A DNA stretch of 46,594 nt from an uncultured Roseiflexus sp. Its GTDB lineage: Bacteria; Chloroflexota; Chloroflexia; Chloroflexales; Roseiflexaceae. Both the position numbers and the translations under genes were made by a program. Location of the stretch: the NCBI GenBank assembly GCA_937935075.1, contig CALGYB010000110.1, positions 1 through 46,594 of the forward strand, written 5' to 3'. The notes under the pieces are model-generated. The model was not told the origin of the DNA and searched no databases. It was given only the letters and a program-made list of their open reading frames with translations. Each line of letters begins with the position of its first letter. Position 1 is the first letter of the stretch. Of this stretch, positions 2,304 to 33,273 are shown in pieces.

Positions 2304-2321
2304 GCAACGGGCGCCCCCGAT

Positions 2322-4382: not shown

Positions 4383-4389
4383 GGCATCG

Positions 4390-4567
4390 TTAGGGGTTAG
4401 GAGCAATGAGATCGAAGAATCCATCGCAGATAACCCTTGCTCCTCAACCCTCAACCCTCATCAACCCTTATTCAATCCTCCCCAATTCCTCTCTCCCGGC
4501 TCTCAGTTCTCGGTTCTCAGTTCTCGGTTCTCAGTTCTCGGCTCTCAGTTCTCAGTTCTCGGCTCTC
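4390..4567. repeat. Heptanucleotide repeat tract (TTCTCAG/TTCTCGG, CTCAACC and CCTAACC-like units)
   Basis: At 4498-4567 about ten degenerate copies of TTCTCAG/TTCTCGG follow each other with period seven. At about 4440-4470 CTCAACC units recur, and at 4390-4402 a short TTAGGGG stretch appears. The first array overlaps the 3' end of the next gene. Three heptamers equal seven codons, so the protein ends in a repeated SRELRTE peptide. This resembles the heptameric STRR repeats known from cyanobacterial genomes, by period only. Confidence 0.85.
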
Positions 4568-6892
4568 CCCAATCTCAACCCGATCCAGCCGCACCATCAA
4601 CCGATGCACTTGCCCGAAGGACCCGGCGCCGTGCTGGCTCAGGTAGCGCGCCGCATCGGGAACAAACACAGGACCGCGCAGTTCGATGATGACATCCGTT
4701 CTGTCTGGCGTTGGCGGCAGGATTACCTCGAACGTGCGCACACCGTCTGGGTTGGCGGGAAAGGCGCCGATCTCATCCCCTGCATACACCACCCGTACCG
4801 GCGAAGCCGGTCGAAGATCGGCGGGCCATGCACGCCCATCAACGGTAAACATCAGACGTTGCGGATATGCGCGTCCGGCGCCGGGAAAACGCAGCAAAGC
4901 GCCATCGGTGCACCAGCGATAGGTTCTCCGTTCGGCAGCGTCACCCTCGCCAGGGTAGCAGCCGCGAATGTACCCCAGATCGAGATTTCCGCCCAGATCG
5001 ATGACGCGGGTTGGCGCAGGGCGCAACCAGTCCCAGGACCATGCGACCGGGTTGGCTGCGTCAACGTGGCGCGGGGTAAACGCTGCGCGCGCGCCGGCCT
5101 CGTCGCCCATGCTGCGCAGCAGATCGCCACGAACGACGCTGCCCTGCACATCTCCTGTCGCAGTGAGCGTGTCGGGTGGCGGCAGCAATGCCAGCGCCTC
5201 ACGGTATCGACCCTGATGCGCAGCAATCAGCGCAGCGCCCAACCGCCGTGTGTCACGGCCCGGCGACCCGTGATGCAAAATAGCGTTGGCAGCGGCAATA
5301 TCGCCAGACTGCAACGCCGCCAGAAAACGCGCATCGTCCAGTGCGAGCGGCCGCGCTGCAATGGCAATGCCGGTAATCGCCACGCTCGACGGGTACGGTC
5401 CCAGGTACGACGCCCACTGTGAGTCGCTGCCTGGCGGTCGTGGTTCCAGATAGGCGTGGGGCGACGCGGCGATCAGGGTCAACAAGCCGGCGAGCAGGCC
5501 GCAGGCGACGCCATAGCGCGTGCGCAACGTGTCGAACAGATACGCACGGCGGCGCAGCAATGTATTGATGGTCACTGCCGCAAGGATGAAGATGAACGGC
5601 AACAACGGCATACGAAAGCGATTGATGGCGAACAACAGCGGCGCCAGCAGGATGTTGAACGCCAGCCAGATCCCGATGAGCGATGCCGGCGCTCCGAGGT
5701 TGGGCGCAGAACGACGCACCACTGCCCACCCAATAACCCCCAGCGGCAGGGTGAGGACATACAGCGTATCATCGAGCAGAAACGTCATCAGAACATACCA
5801 GATCGGCAGGCGACCGGTCGAAAATCCATCGGTCAGACGTTCGGCGCCGGTGTAATTGATGCGGAACAGGTCAACAAGTTCGATCAGCGATTTCTGAACG
5901 AATGCCAGCGGACGATCGGCGATCCGGCAGAGACCTTCACGCATCATCGCCGTCTGACGCGCCGCCTGGTTCGGTTGCGGTCCGGGATGGGGCAGGCACG
6001 TGTCATCGGGTGGCGCTGCGCGCCGATCAGGAAACATCGCCAGCACAAAATCGCGCGTTGGCGCGTCACGTCGTTTGCCGGCGTGCGCCGACCATGCGCC
6101 AATGAGCAGGTTGAACGCACCACTGGTGTCCACCGGGATTGGTCCGCCATAGATCCGCGAGTTGTACGCCGTCCAGGGGGCAATAACGATGGCTGCCGCC
6201 ACCAGAAACGCCAGTGCACGTTGTGGGGTGTATTGCCGGACAAACGCCATCCACCCGGCGATCACCGGCAGCGCCAGGAGCGTCTGACTGCGGGTGAGCG
6301 TCGCCAGCCCGAACAGCGCGCCAGCAATGATGACGCCTGAGAGCGGCTGCCTGGCGTGCAGCGGGCGCTCAGCGGAGATGGTCGTCTCTGGCGCATGACT
6401 GCGAAGCAGCGCCAGTATGCCGCCAAGTATCAGGCAGATGTATAGCGTTTCGGAGAGGATCATCTGCGGATAGATAACGAAGGGCAGGTAGACGCTGGCG
6501 AGCGCAGCAGCAATAAACGGCGCCGCATGCAGATTGGACGGTGCGATCGTTCGGGTCAGCGCGTAGATCAGGGCGATGATCATCAGGCTCAGAACGGTTT
6601 GGGTAACGAAGATTGCACCGGGATCATCGCCAAACAGACGCAGATGCGCTGCCAGAAAGAGCGGATAGAACGGTGCTCGCGTCCACAAGTATCCCTGATG
6701 CCAGTCGAAACCGCGTCCGTGCGCCAGCCACCAGGCCGCCGAAAGATATTCGCCTTCGTCGGATATCAACCCCTGCCGGGGCAATGCCCCCCACAGTATG
6801 CCACGGAAGATCGCGGCTGCCGCCAGGAGCGTCAGCAGCGGCAGATGCGCAACGAGGCGCCGGTCAGGACGATGTCGGGATGGCTGTTCCAT
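4517..6892 (-). CDS. GT-C membrane glycosyltransferase with TPR and C-terminal domain, paralog 3
   Basis: First gene of the three-paralog set, about 791 residues. After a basic N-terminus come a hydrophobic helix (~14-35) and the acidic loop DEGEY (45-49), then about ten further membrane segments, including an APWTAYN motif. A C-terminal soluble part has LDLGYIRG and YRWCTDG and ends in a repeated SRELRTE tail encoded by intergenic-type heptamer DNA. A frame open to 6916 offers an earlier ATG, but a perfect TATAAT lies between the two ATGs (6908 to 6903), so the ATG at 6892 is chosen; the transcript would start only about four bases before it. By family it uses a polyprenyl-phosphate sugar donor at the outer membrane face. 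A tail of repeat origin is unlikely to be functional. The donor and acceptor are unknown. Confidence 0.83.
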   Translation of the reverse strand: MEQPSRHRPDRRLVAHLPLLTLLAAAAIFRGILWGALPRQGLISDEGEYLSAAWWLAHGRGFDWHQGYLWTRAPFYPLFLAAHLRLFGDDPGAIFVTQTVLSLMIIALIYALTRTIAPSNLHAAPFIAAALASVYLPFVIYPQMILSETLYICLILGGILALLRSHAPETTISAERPLHARQPLSGVIIAGALFGLATLTRSQTLLALPVIAGWMAFVRQYTPQRALAFLVAAAIVIAPWTAYNSRIYGGPIPVDTSGAFNLLIGAWSAHAGKRRDAPTRDFVLAMFPDRRAAPPDDTCLPHPGPQPNQAARQTAMMREGLCRIADRPLAFVQKSLIELVDLFRINYTGAERLTDGFSTGRLPIWYVLMTFLLDDTLYVLTLPLGVIGWAVVRRSAPNLGAPASLIGIWLAFNILLAPLLFAINRFRMPLLPFIFILAAVTINTLLRRRAYLFDTLRTRYGVACGLLAGLLTLIAASPHAYLEPRPPGSDSQWASYLGPYPSSVAITGIAIAARPLALDDARFLAALQSGDIAAANAILHHGSPGRDTRRLGAALIAAHQGRYREALALLPPPDTLTATGDVQGSVVRGDLLRSMGDEAGARAAFTPRHVDAANPVAWSWDWLRPAPTRVIDLGGNLDLGYIRGCYPGEGDAAERRTYRWCTDGALLRFPGAGRAYPQRLMFTVDGRAWPADLRPASPVRVVYAGDEIGAFPANPDGVRTFEVILPPTPDRTDVIIELRGPVFVPDAARYLSQHGAGSFGQVHRLMVRLDRVEIGESRELRTESRELRTEN

Positions 6893-6902
6893 AGATGCCG
6901 GG

Positions 6903-6931
6903 ATTATACCCGACATGGGCGCGTCTGTCGT
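6903..6931 (-). promoter_or_regulatory. Sigma-70-type promoter of the glycosyltransferase cluster
   Basis: On the minus strand ACGACA (6931-6926) is followed by a 17-base spacer and a perfect TATAAT (6908-6903). The predicted start of transcription is 3-5 bases before the ATG at 6892, giving an almost leaderless message with no room for a Shine-Dalgarno sequence. Confidence 0.6.
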
Positions 6932-6963
6932 ACAGCCCTGTTCTCACCAATAACGGAATGCGC

Positions 6964-9447
6964 TCAGGTTGCTGCCAGCGCACACTCGATGGCATCTTTC
7001 AATTCCTGCGAGGTAAAAGGCTTTTGCAGAAAACTGTTCAGACCGAGATGCGAGAAACGTCGGCTGGCAATATCCTCGGTATACCCGCTCATCAGCACGA
7101 TCGGCGCATCAGGACATATCAAACGGAACTCTCGGACAATCTGGTAAAAGTCGTGATCCGGCATTGTTGCATCGAGCAGGATACACGCCAGATGCTGCCG
7201 GTGTTGTCGCGCAAGAATGAGCGCGGTTTCAGCATCGCCGGTTGTGAGCGTCGGATGTCCCATCCACTCCAGCATACGCGCCGCAACTGCGCGAACACCC
7301 TCCTCATCATCAACGACGAGAAAGATTTTTTGATAATCTGAATGCAGAACCGTCTGTCGATGGGGAGAAGACCCAAGTCGCACGGGCAGTTGATGGACGA
7401 CCGGCAAGAAGATGGTGACCGTCGTGCCCTTGCCGGGGGTGCTGACCACGTGGATAGCGCCGCGGTGACCGCGCACAATGCCCAGCGTCGCCGGCAGCCC
7501 GAGACCGCGCCCGATGAATTTGGTGCTGAAGAAGGGATCAAAGATTCGTTCGAGCGTTGCGGCATCCATACCGCACCCATTGTCACTGACAGAAAGCGCG
7601 GCATATGTTCCATCGGGCAAATCGGGCGTTCCAACCGTCATTGCCAGAAACGTATGGTCCACAAGACGTTCATCGGTCGCAATCACAACTTCGCCGGATT
7701 GATCGCCAATCGCCTCTGCCGCATTGATCGTCAGGTTGAGGAGAACCTGGCGTAATTGAGCGGCATCTCCTTCCACCAGCGGATCATGGTCGCTTAGGTG
7801 ATAGATCAGCGAGATGCCTTTGGTAATCGATGCCTGAAGAAGATCCGCCATCTCCTGGATCAGATCATTAAGGCTCAGGAGGGTTGTCTGCAATGGGCTA
7901 TGCCCCACGTAGGTCAGCATCTGGCGCGTAATCGCTGCTGCACGTCGGCCGGCGCAGGTAATGGCTTCGATCGACATGCGCTCCGGCGCCTGCGGCGGGA
8001 GCGTGGTCAGCGCAAGCTCGGCGTTGTTCAAAATAATGCCCAGCAGATTGTTGAACTCGTGGGCAATGCCCTGCGCCATAACCCCCATGCTTTCGAGTTT
8101 CTGGCGGTGCTGTAACACGAGTTCGTGTTGCCGACGCTCAGTCACGTCGCGTGAGAGCGCCAGGAACGACTCAACACTGCCATCAGGGCTGATTTCGGGA
8201 ACAATACGCGACTCATAGTATCGATATCCTGATGGCATCTGGAGACCGAACTCGATTGTTTGAACCGAGCGGGTCTCGCTGGCAGCCTGAAAACAGGAGT
8301 CCCACAATTGCGCAATATGTTCAGGCACGCCGCGTTCACGCTGCGTTTTGCCCAGAACGTCCGCGCCGGTCGCCCCGGTCGCCTGCTCGAACGCCGGGTT
8401 GACATACAGGTAGCGTCCCTGGAGGTCGTACCGTGAAATGATATCGGGGGCATTCTCGGCAATGGCTTTGAACTGGCGTTCGCTGCGAAACAGTTGTTCC
8501 TCGACGCGCTTGCGTTCGGTAATATCGCGCCCGACCGATTGATATCCAACCAGACGCTCGCCATCATAGAGCGCGCGGTTGGTCCATCGTTGCCAGCGCA
8601 CCTCGCCGCCTGGCAGAATGACGCGATGTTCAATGGTCCCCACCGGCGACTCAGGAGTCAACGCCGCCAGGTAACGATCAAAATTGGGAATATCGTCGGG
8701 ATGGATGAACCGCCGCAGGTTGCTGCCGATGATCTCCTCCCGCTTCAACCCCCAGTAGCGACAGCCGGCTTCATTGACGAAGGTAATGATGCCATCGGGT
8801 CGTGAGCGACAGATCAGGTCGGTCTGTTCCTCGACGACGGAGCGATACCGCGCTTCACTGTCGCGCAGTGCAGCATTGGAGGCTTCGAGGCGCCCCAGCG
8901 TGGCGTGCAGGTGTGAACTGAAGCGCCAGAGAAGCGCTGCGAGCAGGAGCACGGCGCTCACCAGCGCAGTAATACGAAGCGCAGGTGCAAGCGGCTCATA
9001 CGTGATGAACCATGGCTGCGCCAGTTCGCTACTGATGGCAAGAATGACCGTGATCAGGCTGGTGAGCAGGAGCAACGGTCCGACTTCATGACCGCGGAGA
9101 TGCTGCAATGTCGTAATCAGGATAAGTGGCGGAATCAGCACAGCAACCGGCAGGCTGGCTGGCTCGACCCATACCACGGTCATGGCGCCGAGCGAGAGGG
9201 TTGCAGCAAACAGCATCACTGCCGGATGGCGACGCCGTTGCAACGCGAGGCGTCGCGCCAGCGCGAGCGACAGCCCGGCAACGGACGCAATGACGGCGAT
9301 TGCCGCGCCGGTCAGATCACTGCTTGCAAGAAAGAGGCCAATATTGACGACAGCGAGGGTGACGGCGAATCCCTGCATCAGGAGGATCAGCGATGCCAGG
9401 GATGAAGGGTCACGCAACAGGTCCTTTGACCGTTCTGGCTTGCTCAT
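6964..9447 (-). CDS. Hybrid sensor histidine kinase (membrane sensor, PAS-PAS, HisKA-HATPase, receiver)
   Basis: An 827-residue membrane signalling protein. Five or six hydrophobic segments fill residues 20-175, then a short coiled linker, PAS domain 1 (~196-315, with the HPDD signature), PAS domain 2 (~322-438), an H box with GIAHEFNN (phosphorylated His463), an ATPase domain with N box near 580 and the G boxes DNGCGMD and GRGLGLP, and a receiver domain from ~708 with VVDDEE, the phospho-acceptor in LLDATMPD and a final KPF. Kinase and receiver residues all look intact. The ATG at 9447 has a GGGGAG site five bases upstream. No separate response regulator lies nearby, so output probably passes through a phosphorelay. 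The PAS ligands and target genes cannot be read; control of the flanking glycan genes is only a positional guess. Confidence 0.93.
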   Translation of the reverse strand: MSKPERSKDLLRDPSSLASLILLMQGFAVTLAVVNIGLFLASSDLTGAAIAVIASVAGLSLALARRLALQRRRHPAVMLFAATLSLGAMTVVWVEPASLPVAVLIPPLILITTLQHLRGHEVGPLLLLTSLITVILAISSELAQPWFITYEPLAPALRITALVSAVLLLAALLWRFSSHLHATLGRLEASNAALRDSEARYRSVVEEQTDLICRSRPDGIITFVNEAGCRYWGLKREEIIGSNLRRFIHPDDIPNFDRYLAALTPESPVGTIEHRVILPGGEVRWQRWTNRALYDGERLVGYQSVGRDITERKRVEEQLFRSERQFKAIAENAPDIISRYDLQGRYLYVNPAFEQATGATGADVLGKTQRERGVPEHIAQLWDSCFQAASETRSVQTIEFGLQMPSGYRYYESRIVPEISPDGSVESFLALSRDVTERRQHELVLQHRQKLESMGVMAQGIAHEFNNLLGIILNNAELALTTLPPQAPERMSIEAITCAGRRAAAITRQMLTYVGHSPLQTTLLSLNDLIQEMADLLQASITKGISLIYHLSDHDPLVEGDAAQLRQVLLNLTINAAEAIGDQSGEVVIATDERLVDHTFLAMTVGTPDLPDGTYAALSVSDNGCGMDAATLERIFDPFFSTKFIGRGLGLPATLGIVRGHRGAIHVVSTPGKGTTVTIFLPVVHQLPVRLGSSPHRQTVLHSDYQKIFLVVDDEEGVRAVAARMLEWMGHPTLTTGDAETALILARQHRQHLACILLDATMPDHDFYQIVREFRLICPDAPIVLMSGYTEDIASRRFSHLGLNSFLQKPFTSQELKDAIECALAAT

Positions 9448-14345: not shown

Positions 14346-14374
14346 TTGCTATCATTGTGCATTGGTACTACAAT
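14346..14374 (+). promoter_or_regulatory. Promoter of the phosphohexomutase operon
   Basis: TTGCTA (14346-14351), a 17-base spacer and TACAAT (14369-14374). Transcription would begin near 14381, leaving a leader of about 40 bases with AAGGAG before the ATG at 14423. Confidence 0.6.
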
Positions 14375-14422: not shown

Positions 14423-15796
14423 ATGACGAACATGCATCCGTCCATTTTTCGCGCATACGACATTCGCGGCGTGGTTGATCGCGATCTTTCCGATGAAGTG
14501 TATCGAACGTTGGGGCGCGCGAGCGGGACGTTCTTCCGGCAGCGCGAGCGACGCCGGATTGTGGTGGCGCGCGATGCGCGCCCGACCTCGCCGGCGTATG
14601 CTGCGGCGCTGATCGATGGTCTGCGCCGCAGCGGATGTGATGTCATTGACATCGGGATGGCGCCGACGCCGTTGATGTACTTTGCCGTCTCCTTCCTGCG
14701 CGCTGATGGCGGCGCCGTTGTGACGGCAAGCCACAATCCGCCCCACTTCAACGGCTTGAAACTGCGCCTCTCCGATCCGGTGTACGGCGGGACGCCGCTC
14801 AGCAGCGATCAGATTCAGGAGGTGGGACGGATTGCGATCAGCGGTGCGTTTGTGGCCGGTGACGGCATGTATGAGCAATACGACGTGGCGGAAGACTACG
14901 TGCACGACGTAACCCGTCATATCGCGCTCGAACGAAAGCCCAAAGTTGTGCTCGACGGCGGGAACGGAGTTGCCGGTCCGCTCGGCGTGCGCACGCTGGA
15001 AGCGATTGGCTGCGAAGTCGTCCCGTTGTTCATTGAACCGGACGGCGCCTTCCCCAACCATCATCCCGATCCGCTCAAAGAGGAGAATGTTCAGGACCTC
15101 ATTCGCGTTGTGCGCGAGACCGGCGCCGACATGGGCATTGGCCTCGACGGTGATGGCGACCGTCTTGGCGTGGTTGACGGAAATGGCGAGATCGTCTTCG
15201 CCGACCGCTCCATGATTGTGCTGGCAAAGCAGGCGCTGGCGCGCGGACCGGCGCCGATCGTGTTTGATGTGAAGTGCAGCGTTGTTTTGATCGACGCCAT
15301 TCGCGCCTTTGGCGGCACGCCAGTGATGTGGAAGACGGGCTACTCGAACCTGTCGGCGAAGATGCGCGAGTTGGGAGCGCCACTGGCAGGTGAGTTGAGT
15401 GGTCATATCTTTGGCGCCATCGAACACCATCACCACGATGATGGCATTTTTGCCGCCTGCATGCTGCTCGATGCGCTGGAAAAAAGCGGGCAAACCCTCG
15501 CTCAGGCGCTGGCGCCGTTTCCGCCGTTGCCGTCGCTGTCGGAGGGTCGTCTGCCATTCGATGAAGAGACGAAGTTCAAGGCGATTGATTTCGTGCGCGA
15601 CTACTTCGCTGCGCGATACCCGGTCATCGACGTGGACGGCGTGCGTGTCGATTTTGGCGATGGTTGGGGGATTTTGCGCGCGTCGAATACCGAACCGGCG
15701 ATTACCACTCGTTTCGAGGCGCGCACACTTGAGCGCGTGTACGAGATCCGCAATATGATGATTGGCAAGTTGCGCGAGTTCGCAGCCGCGCAATAA
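14423..15796 (+). CDS. Phosphomannomutase/phosphoglucomutase family enzyme
   Basis: A 457-residue alpha-D-phosphohexomutase that interconverts hexose 6- and 1-phosphates, a supply step for nucleotide sugars. All four active-site loops are visible: the phosphoserine loop TASHNP (Ser103), the Mg loop DGDGDR (near 242-247), the sugar-specificity loop GELSGH (323-328) and the phosphate loop RASNTEP (near 420). GE(L)SGH is usual for phosphomannomutase/phosphoglucomutase enzymes of AlgC type. The ATG at 14423 has AAGGAG seven bases upstream; the longer frame from 14357 overlaps the −10 box and is not used. It is the first gene of a run with a phosphomutase-like protein, a YvcK-like protein and an alternative GlmU. 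Preference between mannose, glucose and glucosamine phosphates is not clear from sequence. Confidence 0.93.
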   Translation: MTNMHPSIFRAYDIRGVVDRDLSDEVYRTLGRASGTFFRQRERRRIVVARDARPTSPAYAAALIDGLRRSGCDVIDIGMAPTPLMYFAVSFLRADGGAVVTASHNPPHFNGLKLRLSDPVYGGTPLSSDQIQEVGRIAISGAFVAGDGMYEQYDVAEDYVHDVTRHIALERKPKVVLDGGNGVAGPLGVRTLEAIGCEVVPLFIEPDGAFPNHHPDPLKEENVQDLIRVVRETGADMGIGLDGDGDRLGVVDGNGEIVFADRSMIVLAKQALARGPAPIVFDVKCSVVLIDAIRAFGGTPVMWKTGYSNLSAKMRELGAPLAGELSGHIFGAIEHHHHDDGIFAACMLLDALEKSGQTLAQALAPFPPLPSLSEGRLPFDEETKFKAIDFVRDYFAARYPVIDVDGVRVDFGDGWGILRASNTEPAITTRFEARTLERVYEIRNMMIGKLREFAAAQ

Positions 15797-15834
15797 GTGA
15801 CGAAACAGCGTATACGATCCATCAGTTTCTGGAT

Positions 15835-16941
15835 ATGCCAATCGTGCGTTACACGTACTGCTGGGAAGGCATCATCGCAGCGGATTTCACACTCGATGCG
15901 GTGCGCCGCAAGTACACGGCGTTTGCTGAACTGCTCAATGCGCGCGGCTGGAGTTGCCTGGTCGCGTATGATACCCGTTTTCTTTCGGCGCATGTCGCTG
16001 CCGATTGCCACCAGGGATTGCGGGCGCTCGGGGCGCGTGTCGTCCTCAGTTCAACGTCGTTGCCGCGTCCGGCAATCGATGTTGCGCTCGATCACGGCGT
16101 CGCCGATTGTGCACTGATTGTCTCCGCCGGGAATCGTGACTACTGGCTCAACGGATTGATCGTCATCGCTCCGGCGCCAGGGTTGAATCCTTTCGTCGAT
16201 GGCAATGCGCCGCCCGTGTGTCCGCCATTTCCTGCGGACATTTCCGACGCACCTATGATCGATGCGCGCCGCACCTATATCGAGAGTCTGCGCCAGGCGA
16301 TTGATGTTGATCTGACGCACCAGACGTCGCTGACCATTTTCGTGGATGCCATGAACGGCACGACAGGCGGTATCATCCCGGCGGTGCTGGGTGACGGCAC
16401 ACAAACCAAAACGATCGAAATCAACCGCGATGCCGATGCCTGGTTTGGTCGTCAGGCGCCACACCCGCACGCCGCACCGCTGGTGCGTCTGCGTAAACTG
16501 GTGCGCGAAAGCGACTCACACCTGGGTGTCGCTCTTTCGGCTGATGGTCGAGCGCTGGGCGTGGTGGACAACGATGGTGATCTGGCGCCGCATCTCGACA
16601 TTGCGCTGCTTCTGGCGCAGTATCTCAACCGTCAGCACCGCCGGCGCGGGCTGGTCATCGTTCCTGCCTCAGCGTCATCGGTGGAATGGGTGCGCACCTG
16701 GGAAGCGCAAACCGGCTTGAATGTCGAGTTTGCGGAACAACCGACAGCCCGCATCGCCGAAGCGCGCGCAGCGCATCAGTTGCTGGTCGGAATGACGGAA
16801 GACGGGCAACCGACCATTGGGCGCATTGGCGGTGTTGGCGACGCAGCCCTGGCAGCGCTGCTGCTGATCGAACTGGTGGCGCGCCGCAACGTCAAGCTGC
16901 GCGTCCTGCGCGAAAAGTTGCGCCAATCGCAGGGAGCATGA
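15835..16941 (+). CDS. Phosphohexomutase-like protein lacking the catalytic serine loop
   Basis: A 368-residue protein related to the preceding mutase but shorter. The fold is recognisable from FVDAMNGTTGGIIP (domain 2 start) and from LGVALSADGRALGVVDNDG, which aligns with the metal loop but has changed it: the DGDGDR aspartates are replaced by SADGRA. Where a TASHNP loop is expected, the sequence reads VSAGNRDYWLNG, with no phosphoserine motif. The C-terminal phosphate-binding domain is missing. The enzyme is therefore probably inactive as a mutase and could bind sugar phosphate or regulate its partner. It begins 38 bases after the first gene and is followed 24 bases later by the YvcK-like gene. 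The start has no clear Shine-Dalgarno sequence. Family: fairly sure; function: unknown. Confidence 0.75.
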   Translation: MPIVRYTYCWEGIIAADFTLDAVRRKYTAFAELLNARGWSCLVAYDTRFLSAHVAADCHQGLRALGARVVLSSTSLPRPAIDVALDHGVADCALIVSAGNRDYWLNGLIVIAPAPGLNPFVDGNAPPVCPPFPADISDAPMIDARRTYIESLRQAIDVDLTHQTSLTIFVDAMNGTTGGIIPAVLGDGTQTKTIEINRDADAWFGRQAPHPHAAPLVRLRKLVRESDSHLGVALSADGRALGVVDNDGDLAPHLDIALLLAQYLNRQHRRRGLVIVPASASSVEWVRTWEAQTGLNVEFAEQPTARIAEARAAHQLLVGMTEDGQPTIGRIGGVGDAALAALLLIELVARRNVKLRVLREKLRQSQGA

Positions 16942-16965
16942 CGTGTTGATCAGGAGCGCAAGGAC

Positions 16966-18156
16966 ATGCAGCGCATTGTACAACGTCTGAGTTCGCTCCG
17001 GCGTCTGATCCGCCCGCTGGCGCTGACGTTTGTCGGCATCGTCTTTCTCTCACTCGGCGTTGCATACTTCTTTATCTTCATCTACCGCACTGCGACGCTG
17101 CCGCCGATCTTTTCGTTCATCACGCTGCAATTCATGCCCTTGTGGGCGCGCGGATTGGTGTTCGCCGCGCTGGGATTGATGACGCTCGCCGTTGGCATCT
17201 GGCAACTCAGCGGCGTGGCCGTCATTCCGCTCAACACCCAGGTCGATACCAGCGGTGAGCTGGTGCTTGCCTATCAGCGCGATCAGACGCCGCCCCGGAT
17301 GACGGTTCTCTCGGGAGGCGCCGGACTCCTGATCACTGCCAGCCTCGGTCGGTCGGCGCAACGCTTGACCTGCATCACCCCCGTGCAAGACCCGGTCGAG
17401 TATTACTATCGCGCATCGAGTCTGTTCAACTTTGAAAATGTCGTTTTCGTTGTGCCAACACCTGAACCGCAGGAGGTCTTCGTCGAACTCGACGACGGAC
17501 AGAGGTTCAATATCAAGCACAATATTGCGCACGATGAACGCCTGGCGGATCGGCACGTCGTCAATATCTATATTGGTGACGAGCAAGGACCGATCACTGC
17601 GTCGCTGCCGGTCACGCAGGTGGCGCTCGATGCCATCGCCTCCGCCGATGTGATTGTGTTCGGTCCCGGCAGTCTGTATGAAAGCATTCTGCCGAACCTG
17701 CTCATTCCTGACCTGCGCGATGCCATCCGGCGCAGCAAAGCATGCAAAATCTATATTTGCAGCCTGATGACGGAACCGGGTATGACGACCGGCTACAGCG
17801 TCGGCGATCATGTGCGCCAGATCGTGCGCTTTGGCGGATTTACTCCTGACTACGTGCTGGTCAATGCACCGCGGATCGATGCCGAGGTGCGCCGGATCTA
17901 CGCAGCAGCTCGACAAATGCCGGTCTTCCTCTCACCAGAGGAATACGAAGAAACCGCCGTCAGCACGACCGACCGTCTCACCACACGCGATATTCTGGTC
18001 GAAGGCGCCAAGGTTATCGAAGCAGACCTGGCGACTGCGGTGGTGCAGTTGACGGCGTCGCTCGACCATCCCGGCGAAGGGCGCACGGTGCGCGTACTGC
18101 GGCACGACCCGGAGAAACTGGCGACAGCGATCCTGGAAGTCTGGAAGCGCCGATAA
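16966..18156 (+). CDS. Membrane-anchored YvcK/CofD-like protein with degenerate N-terminal half
   Basis: A 396-residue protein with two membrane helices (~18-40 and ~58-80) ahead of a soluble YvcK-like domain. The C-terminal half keeps family signatures: VFGPGSLYESILPNLLIPDLR (positions ~231-251) and LMTEPGMTTGYSVGDHV (~268-284). The N-terminal half does not: the glycine-rich loop is only SGGAGLL, and the family's ADDGGSSG and PPGDIRN segments are absent. YvcK proteins bind UDP-GlcNAc and influence cell-wall precursor flow; here the nucleotide site appears altered and the protein is tied to the membrane. CAGGAG and AAGGAC precede the ATG. It sits between a degenerate phosphohexomutase and an alternative GlmU, which supports a sensor role for a nucleotide sugar. 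CofD activity is unlikely. Confidence 0.78.
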   Translation: MQRIVQRLSSLRRLIRPLALTFVGIVFLSLGVAYFFIFIYRTATLPPIFSFITLQFMPLWARGLVFAALGLMTLAVGIWQLSGVAVIPLNTQVDTSGELVLAYQRDQTPPRMTVLSGGAGLLITASLGRSAQRLTCITPVQDPVEYYYRASSLFNFENVVFVVPTPEPQEVFVELDDGQRFNIKHNIAHDERLADRHVVNIYIGDEQGPITASLPVTQVALDAIASADVIVFGPGSLYESILPNLLIPDLRDAIRRSKACKIYICSLMTEPGMTTGYSVGDHVRQIVRFGGFTPDYVLVNAPRIDAEVRRIYAAARQMPVFLSPEEYEETAVSTTDRLTTRDILVEGAKVIEADLATAVVQLTASLDHPGEGRTVRVLRHDPEKLATAILEVWKRR

Positions 18157-18179
18157 CTCACAGAATGGCAGGTTCTGCT

Positions 18180-19553
18180 ATGACTGATGAGACGATTGTG
18201 ATTTTTGAAGATGAAGGGTGTCGCACGTTCCTGCCCTTGACGCATACGCGACCGGTGTGCGACCTGCGCTGCGGCATCTTCACGCTGCGCGAACGGTTGC
18301 AGACATTGACCGGCAAGCCGCCGGCGGTCATCTGCCGTCCCCACCTGGCGCGCGCCTATGGCGTCGGGCGCTGGCCCCTGGCGTTGCTCAGCCAGAGTGC
18401 ACCGCTTACATTTGTGAACGCACGTGCGCTTGATCTCCACTGGCTGCCCGACCTGTGCGACGAACCGCCGGGGACGGTGTACGTCGCCGATGCCGGTCAC
18501 GCGCTGCTTGGCGGTCCGGTGTTGCTGGGGGCGCGCCTGACACCGTGGCTGGCGAGCGCAGTGCTTCCCTATCTGCTGGATCAGCGCGCCGAAATGGCGC
18601 TGGCGGAACTACAGCGTTTCGGACGCCTTGTCGAAGTCGAGACGCGCCTGCTCGCCTTTCCCTGGGACCTGATCGCGCTGAACGGCGAACAGATCACGCG
18701 TGACATTTCGCTGATCGTTGAGCGGGATGGATGGTTCAGCGCTGCCGATCATCCACCGGATCTCCCCGCGATCGTCATCAACAACCCAAAGCATGTGTTC
18801 ATCCATCGCGATGCGCGCCTCGAACCGCCGCTGGCGCTCGATGCCCGCGATGGACCCATCGTGATCGATACGGCGCGGGTCGAGCCGTTTTCATTTATTC
18901 AAGGTCCTTCCTACATTGGTCCTGGCTCGCTTATTGCAAGTGCGCGCATACGCGGCGAAACGAGTATTGGTCCTGTCTGTCGCATTGGCGGCGAAGTCGA
19001 GGCAAGCATCGTTCAGGGGTACAGCAACAAGCACCACGACGGCTTTCTCGGTCATTCGTACCTCGGCGAGTGGGTCAACATCGGCGCGATGACGACCAAC
19101 AGCGATCTGAAGAATACCTATGGCACGATCCGCATGGTGATCGAGGGGTTCGGTCAGATCGACAGCGGCATCCTCAAATTGGGGAGTTTCCTTGCCGATC
19201 ACGTCAAATTGGGGATAGGCGTGCATCTGAACGGCGGCGCTGTCGTCGGAACCGGGTCGAATATTTTTGGCGTGCATTTCGCGCCCAAAACCATCCCGCC
19301 ATTTACATGGGGTGGCGAAGTCTTCCGCGAATACCGCATTCAGTCGATGATCGAGGTGGCGCGCAAGGTGATGGCGCGGCGCAAGGTGAGTCTCAGCGCT
19401 GAGCAGGAAGAGGTGCTGCGCGCCGTCTTTGCGATGACGCGCGGCGACCGCGCCGGACTCGACGGTGGCGACGCGCGCGACGAGGCGGCGTTGCGGCGGG
19501 CGGAGGCGGATGCTGTGCGCGCGTTTGACCTGGTAGAGGCGTCGGGAGGGTGA
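18180..19553 (+). CDS. Alternative GlmU: sugar nucleotidyltransferase/acyltransferase with left-handed beta-helix
   Basis: About 457 residues. The N-terminus (FEDEGCRTFLPLTHTRPV) and the middle (LNGEQITRDI) match the alternative GlmU-like nucleotidyltransferases. From ~240 onward comes a hexapeptide beta-helix with the hallmark GYSNKHHDGFLGHSYLGEW (~281-299) and NNSDLKNTYG-like NSDLKNTYG. The family is predicted to make UDP-N-acetylglucosamine from glucosamine 1-phosphate, by acetylation then uridylylation, replacing classic GlmU. The longer frame begins at 18165, but the second ATG at 18180 gives the family's normal MTDETIVIFED start; neither has a strong ribosome binding site. It lies 23 bases after the YvcK-like gene and ends the operon, making a UDP-GlcNAc route the best reading. 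Other UDP- or dTDP-sugars remain possible. Confidence 0.82.
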   Translation: MTDETIVIFEDEGCRTFLPLTHTRPVCDLRCGIFTLRERLQTLTGKPPAVICRPHLARAYGVGRWPLALLSQSAPLTFVNARALDLHWLPDLCDEPPGTVYVADAGHALLGGPVLLGARLTPWLASAVLPYLLDQRAEMALAELQRFGRLVEVETRLLAFPWDLIALNGEQITRDISLIVERDGWFSAADHPPDLPAIVINNPKHVFIHRDARLEPPLALDARDGPIVIDTARVEPFSFIQGPSYIGPGSLIASARIRGETSIGPVCRIGGEVEASIVQGYSNKHHDGFLGHSYLGEWVNIGAMTTNSDLKNTYGTIRMVIEGFGQIDSGILKLGSFLADHVKLGIGVHLNGGAVVGTGSNIFGVHFAPKTIPPFTWGGEVFREYRIQSMIEVARKVMARRKVSLSAEQEEVLRAVFAMTRGDRAGLDGGDARDEAALRRAEADAVRAFDLVEASGG

Positions 19554-19688: not shown

Positions 19689-20639
19689 TCATTGTTGCCG
19701 GTACCGATCAGTGCGGCGAGACCAGTCCTGCGTGGCGCGCAACCAGCTCTCGATGCTCTCAATAAAATGCACCACCGTGTGCTCATTGTCGTCCAGATGG
19801 CGCGCCTGCGTTTTGAGATGGAGAAATCGCTGCACCGCCTGGTCGTGTTGGGCAATTGCCAGAGATAGCGCCTCAGGAAGGGATAATCGATGTTCACGTG
19901 CAAGAATGTGGACAATGTTGTGCGGCGCCTTGTGCGTCTGAATTTCTTTGGGATACGACCAGAGATCGTTGTACCACAACACCGCCTGGGTTGCAGCGTG
20001 GATCAATTCCTGGACGATTGCGTGCTCGAAAAGATGTGACGGTAACACAAAACCGTGCGCCATATCCGTCAGTGCGACTATCGGCAGAAAGGCGCCGGAC
20101 CAGAGACGCATATTTGTGTATGTATCACTATCTGGTTGTCTATCAGCGATGCGGGTGGAGACTTCCCAAAGATGCGCTTCCAGCGTTTGTGTCAGCGCAC
20201 GCTGAAAGCGAACCAACGTTACCGATCCCGCGTGCTGTCGTAGCAGAGCGCTCAGGTCTGCCGCTGCGTGCGTCATGGGATGATCTCCAGCGCCAATTCC
20301 GCTTCCGCCGACGACCGCCAGGATCCGCACATGCAGATCCGCCAGCATTTCGACCGAGTCGACAGAATCCGTCAGATCATCAAGCAGAAAGAACCAGACG
20401 GTCCACAAGCCTATCAGACGCAGCATTGAGCGTGATATGTCCGCGTTAGCGCGCGCTACGAATTCCGCCAAAAGCGCCGAGCGCAGGCGTTGCTCCTGCA
20501 ATTGACTCTGAATGAGGTAGTGAGTGCGCCCCCAGTGGATGATCTCAGTCTCCAACCAGGATGTATCCCGGTGCATGCACTGCGGAAACGGATAGTTGAT
20601 GGCTTCAACCGCCTGCCAGTACCAGAGTCCGGTTCTCAT
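19689..20639 (-). CDS. Class I terpene synthase (sesquiterpene cyclase family)
   Basis: A 316-residue enzyme of the bacterial class I terpene synthases, which ionise a prenyl diphosphate and cyclise it. All diagnostic elements are present in order: the aspartate-rich DDLTD (87-91), the pyrophosphate-sensor arginine Arg178, exactly 46 residues before the NSE triad NDLWSYPKE (224-232), and a C-terminal RY pair near 310. The length matches single-domain synthases such as pentalenene or germacrene synthases. The ATG at 20639 has AAGGAG nine bases upstream. It is transcribed toward the nucleotide-sugar operon, with no prenyl-transferase or tailoring P450 next to it, so the product cannot be inferred. 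Membership is very likely; the product is open. Confidence 0.88.
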   Translation of the reverse strand: MRTGLWYWQAVEAINYPFPQCMHRDTSWLETEIIHWGRTHYLIQSQLQEQRLRSALLAEFVARANADISRSMLRLIGLWTVWFFLLDDLTDSVDSVEMLADLHVRILAVVGGSGIGAGDHPMTHAAADLSALLRQHAGSVTLVRFQRALTQTLEAHLWEVSTRIADRQPDSDTYTNMRLWSGAFLPIVALTDMAHGFVLPSHLFEHAIVQELIHAATQAVLWYNDLWSYPKEIQTHKAPHNIVHILAREHRLSLPEALSLAIAQHDQAVQRFLHLKTQARHLDDNEHTVVHFIESIESWLRATQDWSRRTDRYRQQ

Positions 20640-20815: not shown

Positions 20816-21841
20816 ATGACAACCGGTGCGGAATTTGTCCTCAACGCGCGTCGACAGTTGATTCGCCTCATTGCCATCACGCTTACCGTGAGTGGGTGCT
20901 CTTCATTTCTCCTTGTCGCCATTCTCATGGTGATCACCCGGAATATGGCGGACCTGGCGCCGTATCTCGGCATTATTGCCTTGGGAATTGGGGGGAGTCT
21001 GGCAACCCTGGCGTTGCTGAGCCATGTTGTGCTATGGAAGGCGGTCATTCCGCTCGCGGTCGGTATTGATGGCGCTGTCATTACGAGCGTATTTCTCTTG
21101 CCGGAGCAAACACTGGTAGCGTTGCCATTCTTACTGGTTCCGCTCGTCATCGTATGCCTTGGGCGGCATCGTCCTGCGACGCTTACGACGGTGGGAATGA
21201 GCATCGTTGCAGGAGCGTTCCTTGCCGGTTTTGCACCGCAATCTCAGGTTGATCGCGTTATTATCGGCGATTCATTGCCCTTCATCAGCGGGATAGGAAT
21301 TGTGACGCTCCTGGTCATTATCTGGCTCTTGAGCGACCGGTTGCTTGCCATTTCCGATCAGGCCGTTGCGTTGGCGGATAACCGCGCAGCCGACGCCGAA
21401 GCGGCGCGGCAGCAGGCGGAGGAGGCGCAGCGTACCATTGCGAAGCAGTATGACGAGCAAAAACAATTGCTCGATCTGGTCAGCGTGCTCGAAACGCCGG
21501 TCATCACGATTGGTGAGGGAGTGTTGCTGGCGCCGATTGTCGGTCGCCTGGACAGCCGGCGCGCTGAGCACCTTACGCAGCGCCTGCTCAACGCCGTTCA
21601 TACGCATCGCGCGAATGCGGTAATCATCGACATTGCCGGGGTGCCGACTGTCGATACCATGGTAGCGCAGTTGTTGATCCGCACGGCGCAGTCCCTCCGA
21701 TTGCTTGGCAGTCGGGTCGTGCTGACCGGCATCACTGCCGAAACCGCCATGACGCTGAGCCACCTGGGCGTGAGCCTGAACGATATGAAAACGGTGCGTG
21801 ATCCGCAGGAGGCGCTCCTGGTTCTGGGCGTCAGACCGTAG
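20816..21841 (+). CDS. Six-helix membrane protein with C-terminal STAS (RsbR-like) domain, copy 1
   Basis: A 341-residue protein with about six membrane segments (residues ~15-175), a coiled linker (~185-220) and a STAS domain (~225-335). The domain is of RsbR type: PVITIGEGVLLAPIVGRLDS, then IDIAGVPTVDTMVAQLL, with the threonine of VDT in the place of a phosphorylated residue of RsbR. Such proteins usually form stressosome-like complexes with RsbS and RsbT and release a partner when phosphorylated. Here the sensor is a membrane domain instead of a globin-like one. AAGAGGAG lies five bases before the ATG at 20816. A second paralog follows 121 bases downstream, but no RsbS, RsbT or phosphatase is in the window. 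The signal sensed is unknown. Confidence 0.85.
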   Translation: MTTGAEFVLNARRQLIRLIAITLTVSGCSSFLLVAILMVITRNMADLAPYLGIIALGIGGSLATLALLSHVVLWKAVIPLAVGIDGAVITSVFLLPEQTLVALPFLLVPLVIVCLGRHRPATLTTVGMSIVAGAFLAGFAPQSQVDRVIIGDSLPFISGIGIVTLLVIIWLLSDRLLAISDQAVALADNRAADAEAARQQAEEAQRTIAKQYDEQKQLLDLVSVLETPVITIGEGVLLAPIVGRLDSRRAEHLTQRLLNAVHTHRANAVIIDIAGVPTVDTMVAQLLIRTAQSLRLLGSRVVLTGITAETAMTLSHLGVSLNDMKTVRDPQEALLVLGVRP

Positions 21842-21962
21842 GATCCGTAGGGGCAGGTTGGCGACTGCCCGGTCGGTGGCCTCCGCCTGGACGCGGGGAA
21901 CCGGTGCGATACGCCGACGGTTGCCGGGCTGTGACCTGCCTGGACTATCGAGAGGGGGAGTG

Positions 21963-23045
21963 ATGAGTCGTTTGTTCTCGGTTGGGTTGCCTTCTCCTGA
22001 TGCACAATTGCTCTATCACTGGCGTCTTCGTCTTCTGAACCAACTGCTGTGGGTTCTGGCGGTTGTCGGGTTTGTGACGCTAATCGGCGCTGGGTGGTCA
22101 GATTATAATGCGCTGGGGGAAGACGCCATCCCGTACCTGGTTGCATATACGGCAGCATACGGTGTGGTCCTGGCCATTGCTGTCGTGCATCGTATTGGCT
22201 TCACAGCGCGAGCGCTCACATTATTGACCATCCTGGCGGCGCTCAGCACGCTGATCCTGGCGACAGACGGGTTGCTGGGGAGCGGACGTGTGTTTTGGTT
22301 AGGGACGGTGGTGCTGGCAGCCGCGTTGTTTGGTGTACGCGGCTGCATCGCAATGTTCGTGATGTCGCTGCTATCGTTCAGCATCGTTGGAGGGTTGCAC
22401 ATCCAGGGCGTTCTGTCTGTTCCTCCGCAGCAGCTTGAAACGCTGCACACCGCGCCGGACTGGATCGGAGCGGGTGTTGTTTACCTGTGCACCGTCACGT
22501 TGGCTGCCGTGCCTTTTTTGTACCTGTTGCAGCGGCTTGGCGCCCTGGCGCAGCGTACCATGCAGGATGCTGCGCTTGCTCAGGAGAATGCGCGCCTTGC
22601 GGAAGAACGCGCTGTTGAACTGGAACGACAGACGGCGCGGTTGCAGGAAACCGAACAGATGCTGCGCGATCTGGTCGCAACCCTGGAAACCCCAACAGTC
22701 GAGATTGCCGACAACATCATGCTGGCGCCGCTGGTCGGTCAGATTGATAGCCGGCGTGCCGATACGTTGCTGCGTCGCCTGCTCACTATCGCCAGCGTTC
22801 GGCGCACCCGCCTGATGATCATCGATGTGGCCGGCGTTCCGGCATTCGACACGCTGGTGGCGCAAAGCCTGATCCGAACAGCGCAGGCGCTCGAGTTGAT
22901 CGGGTGCCAGGCAGCGATCACCGGTATCTCTTCGGCAATGGCGCAGACGATCACGTCCCTCGGTCTACAGATGGACTCAATCACGATTGCGCGTTCGCCA
23001 CAGGAGGTGTTGAAGAGGTGGACGCAGGTTGCGCGGCAGAGGTGA
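21963..23045 (+). CDS. Six-helix membrane protein with C-terminal STAS (RsbR-like) domain, copy 2
   Basis: A 360-residue paralog of the preceding gene with six membrane segments, a longer coiled linker (~200-235) and a STAS domain (~240-350) with PTVEIADNIMLAPLVGQIDS and IDVAGVPAFDTLVAQSL. The place of the phospho-acceptor threonine is kept as FDT. The chosen ATG at 21963 has GGGGGAG immediately upstream; a longer frame from 21798 overlaps the first STAS gene and is not supported. The two paralogs differ a lot in their membrane parts, so they may sense different cues while sharing an output. No kinase or switch gene follows. What they control is not visible. Confidence 0.84.
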   Translation: MSRLFSVGLPSPDAQLLYHWRLRLLNQLLWVLAVVGFVTLIGAGWSDYNALGEDAIPYLVAYTAAYGVVLAIAVVHRIGFTARALTLLTILAALSTLILATDGLLGSGRVFWLGTVVLAAALFGVRGCIAMFVMSLLSFSIVGGLHIQGVLSVPPQQLETLHTAPDWIGAGVVYLCTVTLAAVPFLYLLQRLGALAQRTMQDAALAQENARLAEERAVELERQTARLQETEQMLRDLVATLETPTVEIADNIMLAPLVGQIDSRRADTLLRRLLTIASVRRTRLMIIDVAGVPAFDTLVAQSLIRTAQALELIGCQAAITGISSAMAQTITSLGLQMDSITIARSPQEVLKRWTQVARQR

Positions 23046-23299: not shown

Positions 23300-24325
23300 A
23301 TGGATCGCCAAGCGCACGATCGGCATATCCACGTGGTCGCCATTGGCGGCGGCGGCGGTGCAACCCATGTGTTGCACGCCGTTGCGCCATTTGCCGCATC
23401 GCGCACGGCGGTGATCGCAGTAACCGATACCGGTCGCTCGACCGGGCTGGCGCGGCAAATAGGCGCTATGCCCGCCCCCGGCGATCTGCGCGCAACTATC
23501 GCAGCGTTCGCCAGCGACCGGTTGATGGCGGAGATGTTGAACCATCGCTTCGATGGTGCGGCGGTTCCAGCCTTGGAAGGAATGGCGTTCGGCAATCTGC
23601 TGATCGCTGCGCTCACCCGCGTGACTGGCGATTTTGCGACTGCCATTGAGCACACGGCGCGCCTTGCAGCCGCAACAGTGCAGGTGCTGCCGGTGAGCGT
23701 CGCCAATGCGACGCTGTGCGCTGAACTCGCCGATGGGACGCAGGTTGAAGGGGAGTTCGCGGTGCGCGCACCCGGCAAGCCCCCGATTGCGCGTCTCTTT
23801 TTGCGTGAACCGGCGGCTGCCTATCCTCCGGCGCTCGACGCGATCCGCAACGCCGATCTGGTGACGCTTGGTCCGGGAAGTCTCTGGACGTCTACGCTTG
23901 CCTGTGTGCAATTTGCGGGTATGTTGGAGGCGCTCGCCGATTGCCGCGGAACGGTGGCGTATGTCTGCAACTCGACCACGCAGCCGGGACAGACCGATGG
24001 CTACCGCTGCCTCGATCATGTGCAGCGGGTGGTCGAGGCGTTGGGACCGGGCGTGCTTGATGCGGCGCTGATCAATGCCGCCGATCCCGACCCAGCGGCG
24101 CTTCGTTCGTATGAGGACGAGGGGTTGCACCTGCTGCGCCCCGACGATGATGAAATTGCTGCCATCCGCGCGCTTGGCGTAACGCCGCTGGTGCGTGAAC
24201 TGACTAGAGAAATCGGACCCCGACGCGCGCTGTGGAATAAGCAGGACACGATCCGGTATGAGACCGACGCGCTGCGCGCAGCGCTCGACGAGATTGTCAC
24301 AATGAAAGGCGACATCAATGGCTGA
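23300..24325 (+). CDS. YvcK/CofD family protein (UPF0052), soluble
   Basis: A 341-residue soluble member of the YvcK (gluconeogenesis factor) family. Its nucleotide-binding features are much closer to the family norm than those of the membrane-anchored paralog at 16966: a glycine-rich loop AIGGGGGA (14-21), DTGRSTGLAR (43-52, for the usual DDGGSSGRLR), PGDLRA (59-64), GPGSLWTS (192-199) and CNSTTQPGQTDGYR (~215-228). The family binds UDP-GlcNAc and redirects carbon toward the cell wall; F420 biosynthesis by CofD is the alternative. No other F420 gene is visible. The gene overlaps the aminopeptidase start by eight bases, which suggests translational coupling. The start at 23300 has only a weak Shine-Dalgarno sequence. 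Confidence 0.83.
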   Translation: MDRQAHDRHIHVVAIGGGGGATHVLHAVAPFAASRTAVIAVTDTGRSTGLARQIGAMPAPGDLRATIAAFASDRLMAEMLNHRFDGAAVPALEGMAFGNLLIAALTRVTGDFATAIEHTARLAAATVQVLPVSVANATLCAELADGTQVEGEFAVRAPGKPPIARLFLREPAAAYPPALDAIRNADLVTLGPGSLWTSTLACVQFAGMLEALADCRGTVAYVCNSTTQPGQTDGYRCLDHVQRVVEALGPGVLDAALINAADPDPAALRSYEDEGLHLLRPDDDEIAAIRALGVTPLVRELTREIGPRRALWNKQDTIRYETDALRAALDEIVTMKGDING

Positions 24326-29797: not shown

Positions 29798-29888
29798 TGG
29801 CGGGGAGGGCGGGATTTGAACCCGCGAGGGGGGGTTGCCCCCTACGGCATTTCCAGTGCCGCGCACTAGGCCACTATGCGACCTCCCC
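29798..29888 (-). tRNA. tRNA-Ser (anticodon GGA), CCA encoded
   Basis: A 91-base tRNA with a perfect 7-bp acceptor stem (GGGGAGG/CCTCCCC), discriminator G, encoded CCA, anticodon stem CGGCA/TGCCG around loop CTGGAAA (anticodon GGA) and a long variable arm GGGGG...CCCCC, all as expected for a serine tRNA. It reads UCC/UCU codons. Confidence 0.95.
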
Positions 29889-32950: not shown

Positions 32951-33026
32951 AGGCGGGTAGCTCAATTGGCAGAGCAGCGGCCTCCAAATCCGCAGGTTGC
33001 AGGTTCGATTCCTGTCCCGCCTGCCA
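32951..33026 (+). tRNA. tRNA-Trp (anticodon CCA), CCA encoded
   Basis: A 76-base tRNA with acceptor AGGCGGG/CCCGCCT, discriminator G, encoded CCA, D stem GCTC/GAGC, T arm GCAGG-TTCGATT-CCTGT and anticodon loop CTCCAAA. The anticodon stem GCGGC/TCCGC has a C-U mismatch at the loop-closing 31-39 pair. Confidence 0.94.
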
Positions 33027-33064
33027 CCCCGAAAATGAACCGTTGTCAGGCGCTTCATTCGATG

Positions 33065-33156
33065 GGAGGGGTGGCAGAGTGGTTGTAATGCAGTCGTCTT
33101 GAAAACGACCGGCCCTTCAAAAAGGCCCGTGGGTTCGAATCCCACCCCCTCCGCCA
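33065..33156 (+). tRNA. tRNA-Ser (anticodon TGA), CCA encoded
   Basis: A 92-base tRNA with acceptor GGAGGGG/CCCCTCC, discriminator G, encoded CCA, anticodon stem GTCGT/ACGAC with loop CTTGAAA (anticodon TGA) and a long variable arm GGCCC...GGGCC-like, typical for serine. It reads UCA/UCG. Confidence 0.94.
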
Positions 33157-33182
33157 CCGACACAATCTGGCTCACTCCGCAC

Positions 33183-33273
33183 GGGGAGGTCGCATAGTTG
33201 GCCTAGTGCGGCGGTTTGCTAAACCGCTAGGGGAGCAATCCCCTCGAGGGTTCGAATCCCTCCCTCCCCGCCA
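33183..33273 (+). tRNA. tRNA-Ser (anticodon GCT), CCA encoded
   Basis: A 91-base tRNA with acceptor GGGGAGG/CCTCCCC, discriminator G, encoded CCA, anticodon stem GCGGT/ACCGC with loop TTGCTAA (anticodon GCT) and a long variable arm. It reads AGC/AGU. Its acceptor stem is identical to that of tRNA-Ser(GGA) on the other strand at 29798. Confidence 0.94.

Follow-up and report, generated by a model that had tools for sequence, protein, structure and literature searches.

Among the roles reported for GlmR/YvcK proteins are those of a uridyltransferase, an activator of GlmS, and a switch gated by UDP-GlcNAc. In Bacillus subtilis, mutation of either Y265 or R301 of YvcK nearly abolishes UDP-GlcNAc binding, T14 and N218 contributing less (PMC5482804). 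When UDP-GlcNAc is low, B. subtilis GlmR stimulates GlmS, and when it is high, the protein changes its partner to YvcJ (PMC7525490). Uridyltransferase activity of the Listeria GlmR triple mutant D40A D41A N198A is reduced approximately 100-fold (PMC10128056). A regulatory relative of a nucleotide-sugar enzyme has been described in the case of GMPPA: this non-catalytic paralogue of GMPPB is a GDP-mannose-binding regulator of the enzyme (PMC11228364). We found no literature on YvcK in Chloroflexota, as judged by titles and abstracts, and the sole match in the full-text literature on bacterial phosphoglucomutase pseudoenzymes concerned another enzyme.

Here, we report a conserved run of four genes from an uncultured Roseiflexus sp. 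with a genome of 4.85 Mb, analyzed within a stretch of 46,594 nucleotides (the window), in which an intact phosphohexomutase and an alternative GlmU flank a catalytically degenerate mutase relative and a shortened, membrane-anchored relative of YvcK.

Gene Organization of the Locus

The four genes occupy positions 14423–19553 of the plus strand and are spaced by 38, 24, and 23 bp; the extent of the run and the gene order given in the first-pass annotation were reproduced. The run starts with a phosphohexomutase of the PMM/PGM/GlmM superfamily (14423–15796), recognized by Pfam domains I–IV and its motifs, followed by a three-domain pseudo-phosphohexomutase of 368 aa that matches Pfam domains I and II only (15835–16941; hereafter, pseudo-mutase). 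The third gene encodes a membrane-anchored, shortened YvcK (GlmR)-like protein of 396 aa with a CofD Pfam match (16966–18156; hereafter, mYvcK), and the last one an alternative GlmU with NTP_transf_4 and hexapeptide-repeat domains, assigned by TIGR03991 (18180–19553); comparison of homologues favors the start at 18180 over that at 18165. Upstream of the run, no RNA element was detected at gathering thresholds, and the promoter scan gave a single 9/12 match at 14346–14374, no more than is expected by chance.

The same cluster contains an intact soluble YvcK (GlmR), absent from the gene list of the first-pass annotation (23300–24325, plus strand; TIGR01826 226.5 bits vs. the cut-off of 196), an assignment also supported by synteny. 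This gene lies directly 3′ of GlmU in sister genera, and is separated from it in Roseiflexus by a terpene synthase gene and STAS genes. The terpene synthase (19689–20639, minus strand) has epi-cubebol synthases, selinadiene synthases, and encapsulin-cargo cyclases among its relatives; it lies between GlmU and the soluble YvcK in the Roseiflexus-genus loci that were looked at, and is absent from this place in sister genera. The STAS-type membrane proteins are encoded in tandem (20816–21841 and 21957–23045), and a similar-looking third one is found in the same genome (L230:3836–5050). In the soluble YvcK proteins of the group (23300–24325; L110–L124), the segment that reads ADDGGSSG in other YvcK proteins is TDTGRSTG, so that the position of the second catalytic aspartate, D41, is occupied by threonine, even though the TIGR01826 cut-off is passed. 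Elsewhere in the window, three large membrane proteins that match PMT_2/TPR weakly are encoded in a row (63–6916, minus strand), and there is a cluster of three tRNA genes (32951–33270, plus strand) with one more tRNA gene nearby (29801–29888, minus strand). An O-antigen ligase-like gene is located upstream of the run.

The Operon Phosphohexomutase and the Alternative GlmU

Both outer proteins were described as intact enzymes in the first-pass annotation, and rightly so. The phosphohexomutase has four Pfam domains and all motifs, namely, TASHNP, DGDGDR, GELSGH, and RASNTEP. It scores under the cut-offs of both GlmM equivalog families (178 vs. 447.6 bits for TIGR01455; 346.5 vs. 439 bits for TIGR03990), and its best profile, PgmG, at 409.7 bits is also under the cut-off of 600. 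Since no equivalog cut-off is reached, the enzyme could yield a different sugar phosphate. A search of the genome for another mutase clearly of the GlmM type gave none, GlmS is encoded in it, and the phosphohexomutase probably catalyzes the GlmM step for the run.

The alternative GlmU scores 486.3 bits against the TIGR03991 cut-off of 225.3. In addition, the genome carries a classical GlmU uridyltransferase half outside the run (L229:4397–5608, plus strand, on contig G000:C200), and hence the run is not the sole possible source of UDP-GlcNAc. This protein stops before the acetyltransferase C-terminal part (it covers positions 3–332 of the 452-position profile), and the missing acetyltransferase may come from the GlmU of the operon.

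The Membrane-Anchored YvcK-Like Protein

The N-terminal part of mYvcK (residues 1–82; 16966–17211, plus strand) contains a two-helix membrane anchor with hydropathy peaks at residues 21–39 and 63–81; membrane anchoring as such had been proposed from the first inspection. Alignment of this segment with the anchor of the full-length membrane YvcK proteins from families f3 and f4 of the order (described below) gives scores of 87–131, compared with means of 34–40 for locally shuffled sequences (z 6.6–12.7); as judged by these alignments, the two anchors are homologous. The branch point of mYvcK in the tree of whole YvcK proteins is a weak fork (support 44/14) with a stem of 1.97, and it is only the anchor that points to kinship with the full-length anchored form. 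Such anchored YvcK forms also occur in cyanobacteria and in one Bacillota MAG.

The remainder of the protein matches CofD (PF01933) with 121.6 bits against a threshold of 30, albeit over profile positions 120–283 only, and remains under the YvcK/GlmR cut-off (TIGR01826, 114.9 vs. 196 bits). The AlphaFold2 model aligns with the YvcK of B. halodurans (2hzb, residues 2–312) at Z of 27.8 and rmsd of 2.0 Å over 243 of 311 residues, which means that the core is whole and approximately 70 residues have been cut out. Structure prediction for the degenerate proteins, suggested in the first-pass annotation, thus returned the YvcK core fold in this case, and in the case of the pseudo-mutase a three-domain mutase fold.

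Loss of the usual N-terminal nucleotide loops, as previously claimed, holds for a part of them. None of the 45 homologues retains the second catalytic aspartate, and deletions have removed the GGSSG, PPGD, and GN loops. On the other hand, the glycine loop GGAG (residues 117–120; 17314–17325, plus strand) is kept, with G117, G118, and G120 in 45/45 proteins and the general form GG(A/P)G, serine occurring once. The first catalytic aspartate, D142, is also kept and lies in a segment whose other residues form the seam of the internal deletion (QDPVEYYYR, residues 141–149; 17386–17412, plus strand); here D142, Y146, Y147, Y148, and R149 are invariant (45/45). Expressed in the Listeria numbering of uridyltransferase residues, D40 is kept and D41 is lost in all 45 proteins, and N198 is kept in 38.

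By alignment with B. subtilis YvcK (PMC5482804), the two principal UDP-GlcNAc-binding residues, Y265 and R301, correspond to Y312 (17899–17901, plus strand) and R379 (18100–18102, plus strand) of mYvcK, and both are present in 45/45 homologues. Of the lesser binding residues, T14 is replaced by A, P, or S in all proteins, and N218 is either N or S, with serine in 20/45, the protein of the window included.

The Pseudo-Phosphohexomutase

The mutase-like protein was correctly said to lack the serine and metal loops, and its losses extend further, to the sugar-binding loop and domain 4. The degenerate serine loop is SAGNRD (residues 97–102; 16123–16140, plus strand), residue 99 corresponding to the catalytic serine, and follows the pattern (S/T)A(G/R/C/S)(N/K) in 36 homologues; the catalytic position is occupied by G, R, or C in 34 of them and by serine in two, where the next histidine is missing. 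The metal loop, DGDGDR in the enzyme, has become SADGRA (residues 235–240; 16537–16554, plus strand); in its general form S-A-D-G-(T/R)-A the middle aspartate is kept in 36/36 proteins, whereas the first and third are replaced in 36/36. The sugar loop GExS is missing from the 36 homologues, and the chain stops before the phosphate-binding domain 4. Relocation of the catalytic loops to another position was looked for in the alignments of both degenerate proteins, and none was seen. The AlphaFold2 model (pLDDT 89, pTM 0.90) matches the three-domain mutase 1tuo with Z of 36.7 and rmsd of 3.3 over 352 residues.

In the maximum-likelihood tree, all sampled pseudo-mutases of both families form one clade with support of 100/100 and a long stem. 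The clade falls on the side of intact mutases of the same class, 465–494 aa long, with motifs TASHNP, DGD(A/G)DR, GEESGG, and R(F/P)SGTEP (single variants being GEETGG in L233 and TASHNS in L235), and the operon mutase is placed apart. Hence, the pseudo-mutase is, by its sequence, a pseudoenzyme, and its ancestry is separate from that of its operon neighbor. Origin by tandem duplication of the operon mutase is ruled out by the same tree.

Two other arrangements of mutase genes were observed. In genome G087 (family f6), the gene for an intact pseudo-mutase relative overlaps that for a second intact mutase (L235:4984–6441 and 6437–7852), and two adjacent catalytic mutases are possibly an earlier state of the arrangement. 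The Roseiflexus genome itself encodes, on the contig of the GlmU uridyltransferase half, an 832-aa fusion of a mannose-1-phosphate guanylyltransferase-like part and a mutase half (L229:8302–10797, minus strand, G000:C200). The latter seemingly lacks SHNP and DGDGD, the alignment being poor; the fusion hints that pseudo-mutases may have been paired with nucleotidyltransferases more than once.

Distribution and Selection

The order-level profile searches covered 82 genomes. Families are denoted here by handles, whose identity was deduced from overlap with a collection of named genomes: f1 is Roseiflexaceae, f2 is Chloroflexaceae, f3 is probably Herpetosiphonaceae, and genus g12 is probably Chloroflexus. 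The four genes occur together across Roseiflexaceae and Chloroflexaceae, so that the synteny check suggested in the first-pass annotation came out in favor of the run. The alternative GlmU exceeds the cut-off in 65/82 genomes, all of them from f1 and f2 and none from f3 or f4; these latter families also lack a close mYvcK and the pseudo-mutase, and have the full-length anchored YvcK instead. Of the 51 genomes with a pseudo-mutase, 40 have GlmU downstream of it on the same strand, with a single gene, mYvcK, in between. The remaining 11 comprise seven genomes of g12, where GlmU has moved, and four with GlmU on another contig or under the cut-off. In g3 and g9, two genera from the family of the Roseiflexus genome, the other three genes are kept without the pseudo-mutase. 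Split pseudo-mutases were observed in G044 and G060; there is a run of N in one case and a frame-shifted GlmU in the other, and therefore assembly faults are likelier than gene death.

Proteins with 47–96% identity to mYvcK are encoded in at least 54 named loci of Roseiflexaceae and Chloroflexaceae, with a few MAG titles bearing other names. These loci came from a pattern-based scan of 84,980 species, which also addressed occurrence outside Chloroflexales; among the matches listed, the weaker ones that were checked proved to be full-length YvcK.

Estimated by the Nei–Gojobori method within the genus and next to it, where dS is often near or above 1 and the ratios are hence rough, dN/dS is 0.03–0.06 for mYvcK, 0.06–0.08 for the mutase, 0.06–0.10 for GlmU, and 0.11–0.20 for the pseudo-mutase. 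As mYvcK has the lowest dN/dS of the run, it is not decaying. Pseudogene decay of the two degenerate proteins is ruled out by these values together with frames that remain open across families. The term "degenerate" thus applies to catalytic residues, but not to the proteins as wholes, mYvcK being the most constrained of the four.

Functional Interpretation

We tentatively propose that the run is a conserved operon for UDP-GlcNAc production. The mutase would yield hexosamine 1-phosphate, which the alternative GlmU would acetylate and/or uridylylate. In mYvcK, the binding residues and the anchor are retained without a complete catalytic site, next to mutase and GlmU genes, and the protein is therefore best read as a candidate non-catalytic reporter of UDP-GlcNAc that is tethered to the membrane and acts on this pair, a reading to which we give slightly less than an even chance. 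Specifically, it could tune or position the mutase and GlmU at the site of peptidoglycan and envelope glycan synthesis. UDP-GlcNAc binding by mYvcK, absence of catalysis, contacts with other proteins, and regulation with its direction are all inferred here. The pseudo-mutase would be a non-catalytic accessory protein that partners with either the mutase or GlmU and is dispensable in some genera. The idea of a UDP-GlcNAc sensor at the membrane, which the first-pass annotation had extended to both middle proteins, gains support at the level of individual residues for mYvcK and becomes much weaker for the pseudo-mutase, given the genera without this gene. Several observations speak against a reporter: both lesser binding residues are changed, the lost loops may themselves contribute to nucleotide binding, g3 and g9 have no pseudo-mutase, GlmU is elsewhere in g12, the mutase is under every equivalog cut-off, and the genome has a GlmU uridyltransferase half outside the run.

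Some of the alternatives considered below are mutually compatible. The conserved anchor and the disappearance of catalytic loops would suit a protein that serves only as a tether and recruits GlmU and both mutase-fold proteins to the membrane, with the nucleotide site as an inherited remnant. A precedent for a mutase on a membrane-linked protein is GlmM on CdaA (PMC8573169), and the pseudo-mutase model matches the GlmM of this pair with Z of 34.0. Nevertheless, invariance of Y312, R379, D142, and the GG.G loop, together with a dN/dS below that of the other three proteins, would not be required of a tether, and we consider this role unlikely. Invariance of the same D142 and of Y146, Y147, Y148, and R149 could also mean that the QDPxEYYYRA seam is a new active site with changed chemistry, and a long stem (1.97) with strong constraint after it is consistent with neofunctionalization. 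However, the catalytic half has lost approximately 70 residues, and to our knowledge, an active site in the YvcK fold without these loops would be unprecedented, which leaves a new catalyst quite improbable. We similarly regard as unlikely, though worth stating, that mYvcK forms a protein class of its own in Roseiflexaceae and Chloroflexaceae, be it as a membrane sensor dedicated to UDP-GlcNAc or as an enzyme with the new QDPxEYYYRA site.

Two further alternatives concern the neighbors of mYvcK. The run may make another nucleotide sugar, e.g., for exopolysaccharide, as might be suggested by a mutase closer to PgmG than to GlmM and by the upstream O-antigen ligase-like gene; yet the alternative GlmU and YvcK both indicate UDP-GlcNAc, and with GlmS present and no other clear GlmM-type mutase found in the genome, such a product seems rather improbable. 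Absence from g3 and g9 and the highest dN/dS of the four genes could mark the pseudo-mutase as a passenger being lost, so that only the other three genes count. This is very unlikely, as its dN/dS still indicates purifying selection, its sequences form one clade across both families, and the seemingly broken copies look like assembly faults.

Should mYvcK prove a dedicated sensor, the binding role of GlmR would be split in it from the uridyltransferase role. With much of the catalytic side lost, the binding tyrosine and arginine kept, and strong constraint, mYvcK would represent a natural separation-of-function variant, encoded beside the enzymes on which a candidate regulator would act, and accompanied by a conserved bacterial pseudo-phosphohexomutase.

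Comparison with Known Systems

With YvcK/GlmR, mYvcK shares the fold (2hzb), the GG.G loop, the first catalytic aspartate, the GPGS and C(N/S)xMTEPG segments, the UDP-GlcNAc-binding tyrosine and arginine, and the C-terminal RHD helix; it differs in the loss of the second aspartate and of the GGSSG, PPGD, and GN loops, and in its TIGR01826 score under the cut-off. The full-length anchored YvcK of f3 and f4 has a homologous two-helix N-terminal anchor; in contrast to mYvcK, it keeps the ADDGGSSG, PPGD, and GN loops, and no run of mutase and GlmU genes surrounds it where this was looked at. The pseudo-mutase resembles Arch_GlmM-like (TIGR03990) mutases and 1tuo in its three-domain fold and descends from that lineage, while lacking the serine loop, metal triad, sugar loop, and domain 4 of these enzymes.

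Like GMPPA, mYvcK may be a non-catalytic relative that binds the end product and is found beside a nucleotide-sugar enzyme; this is an analogy only, as GMPPA has an unrelated fold and no membrane anchor. Finally, the arrangement recalls the GlmM–CdaA pair: in both, a protein with the mutase fold accompanies a membrane protein whose nucleotide domain is cytosolic. A contact between the two would be putative in the run, and CdaA is a catalytic cyclase.
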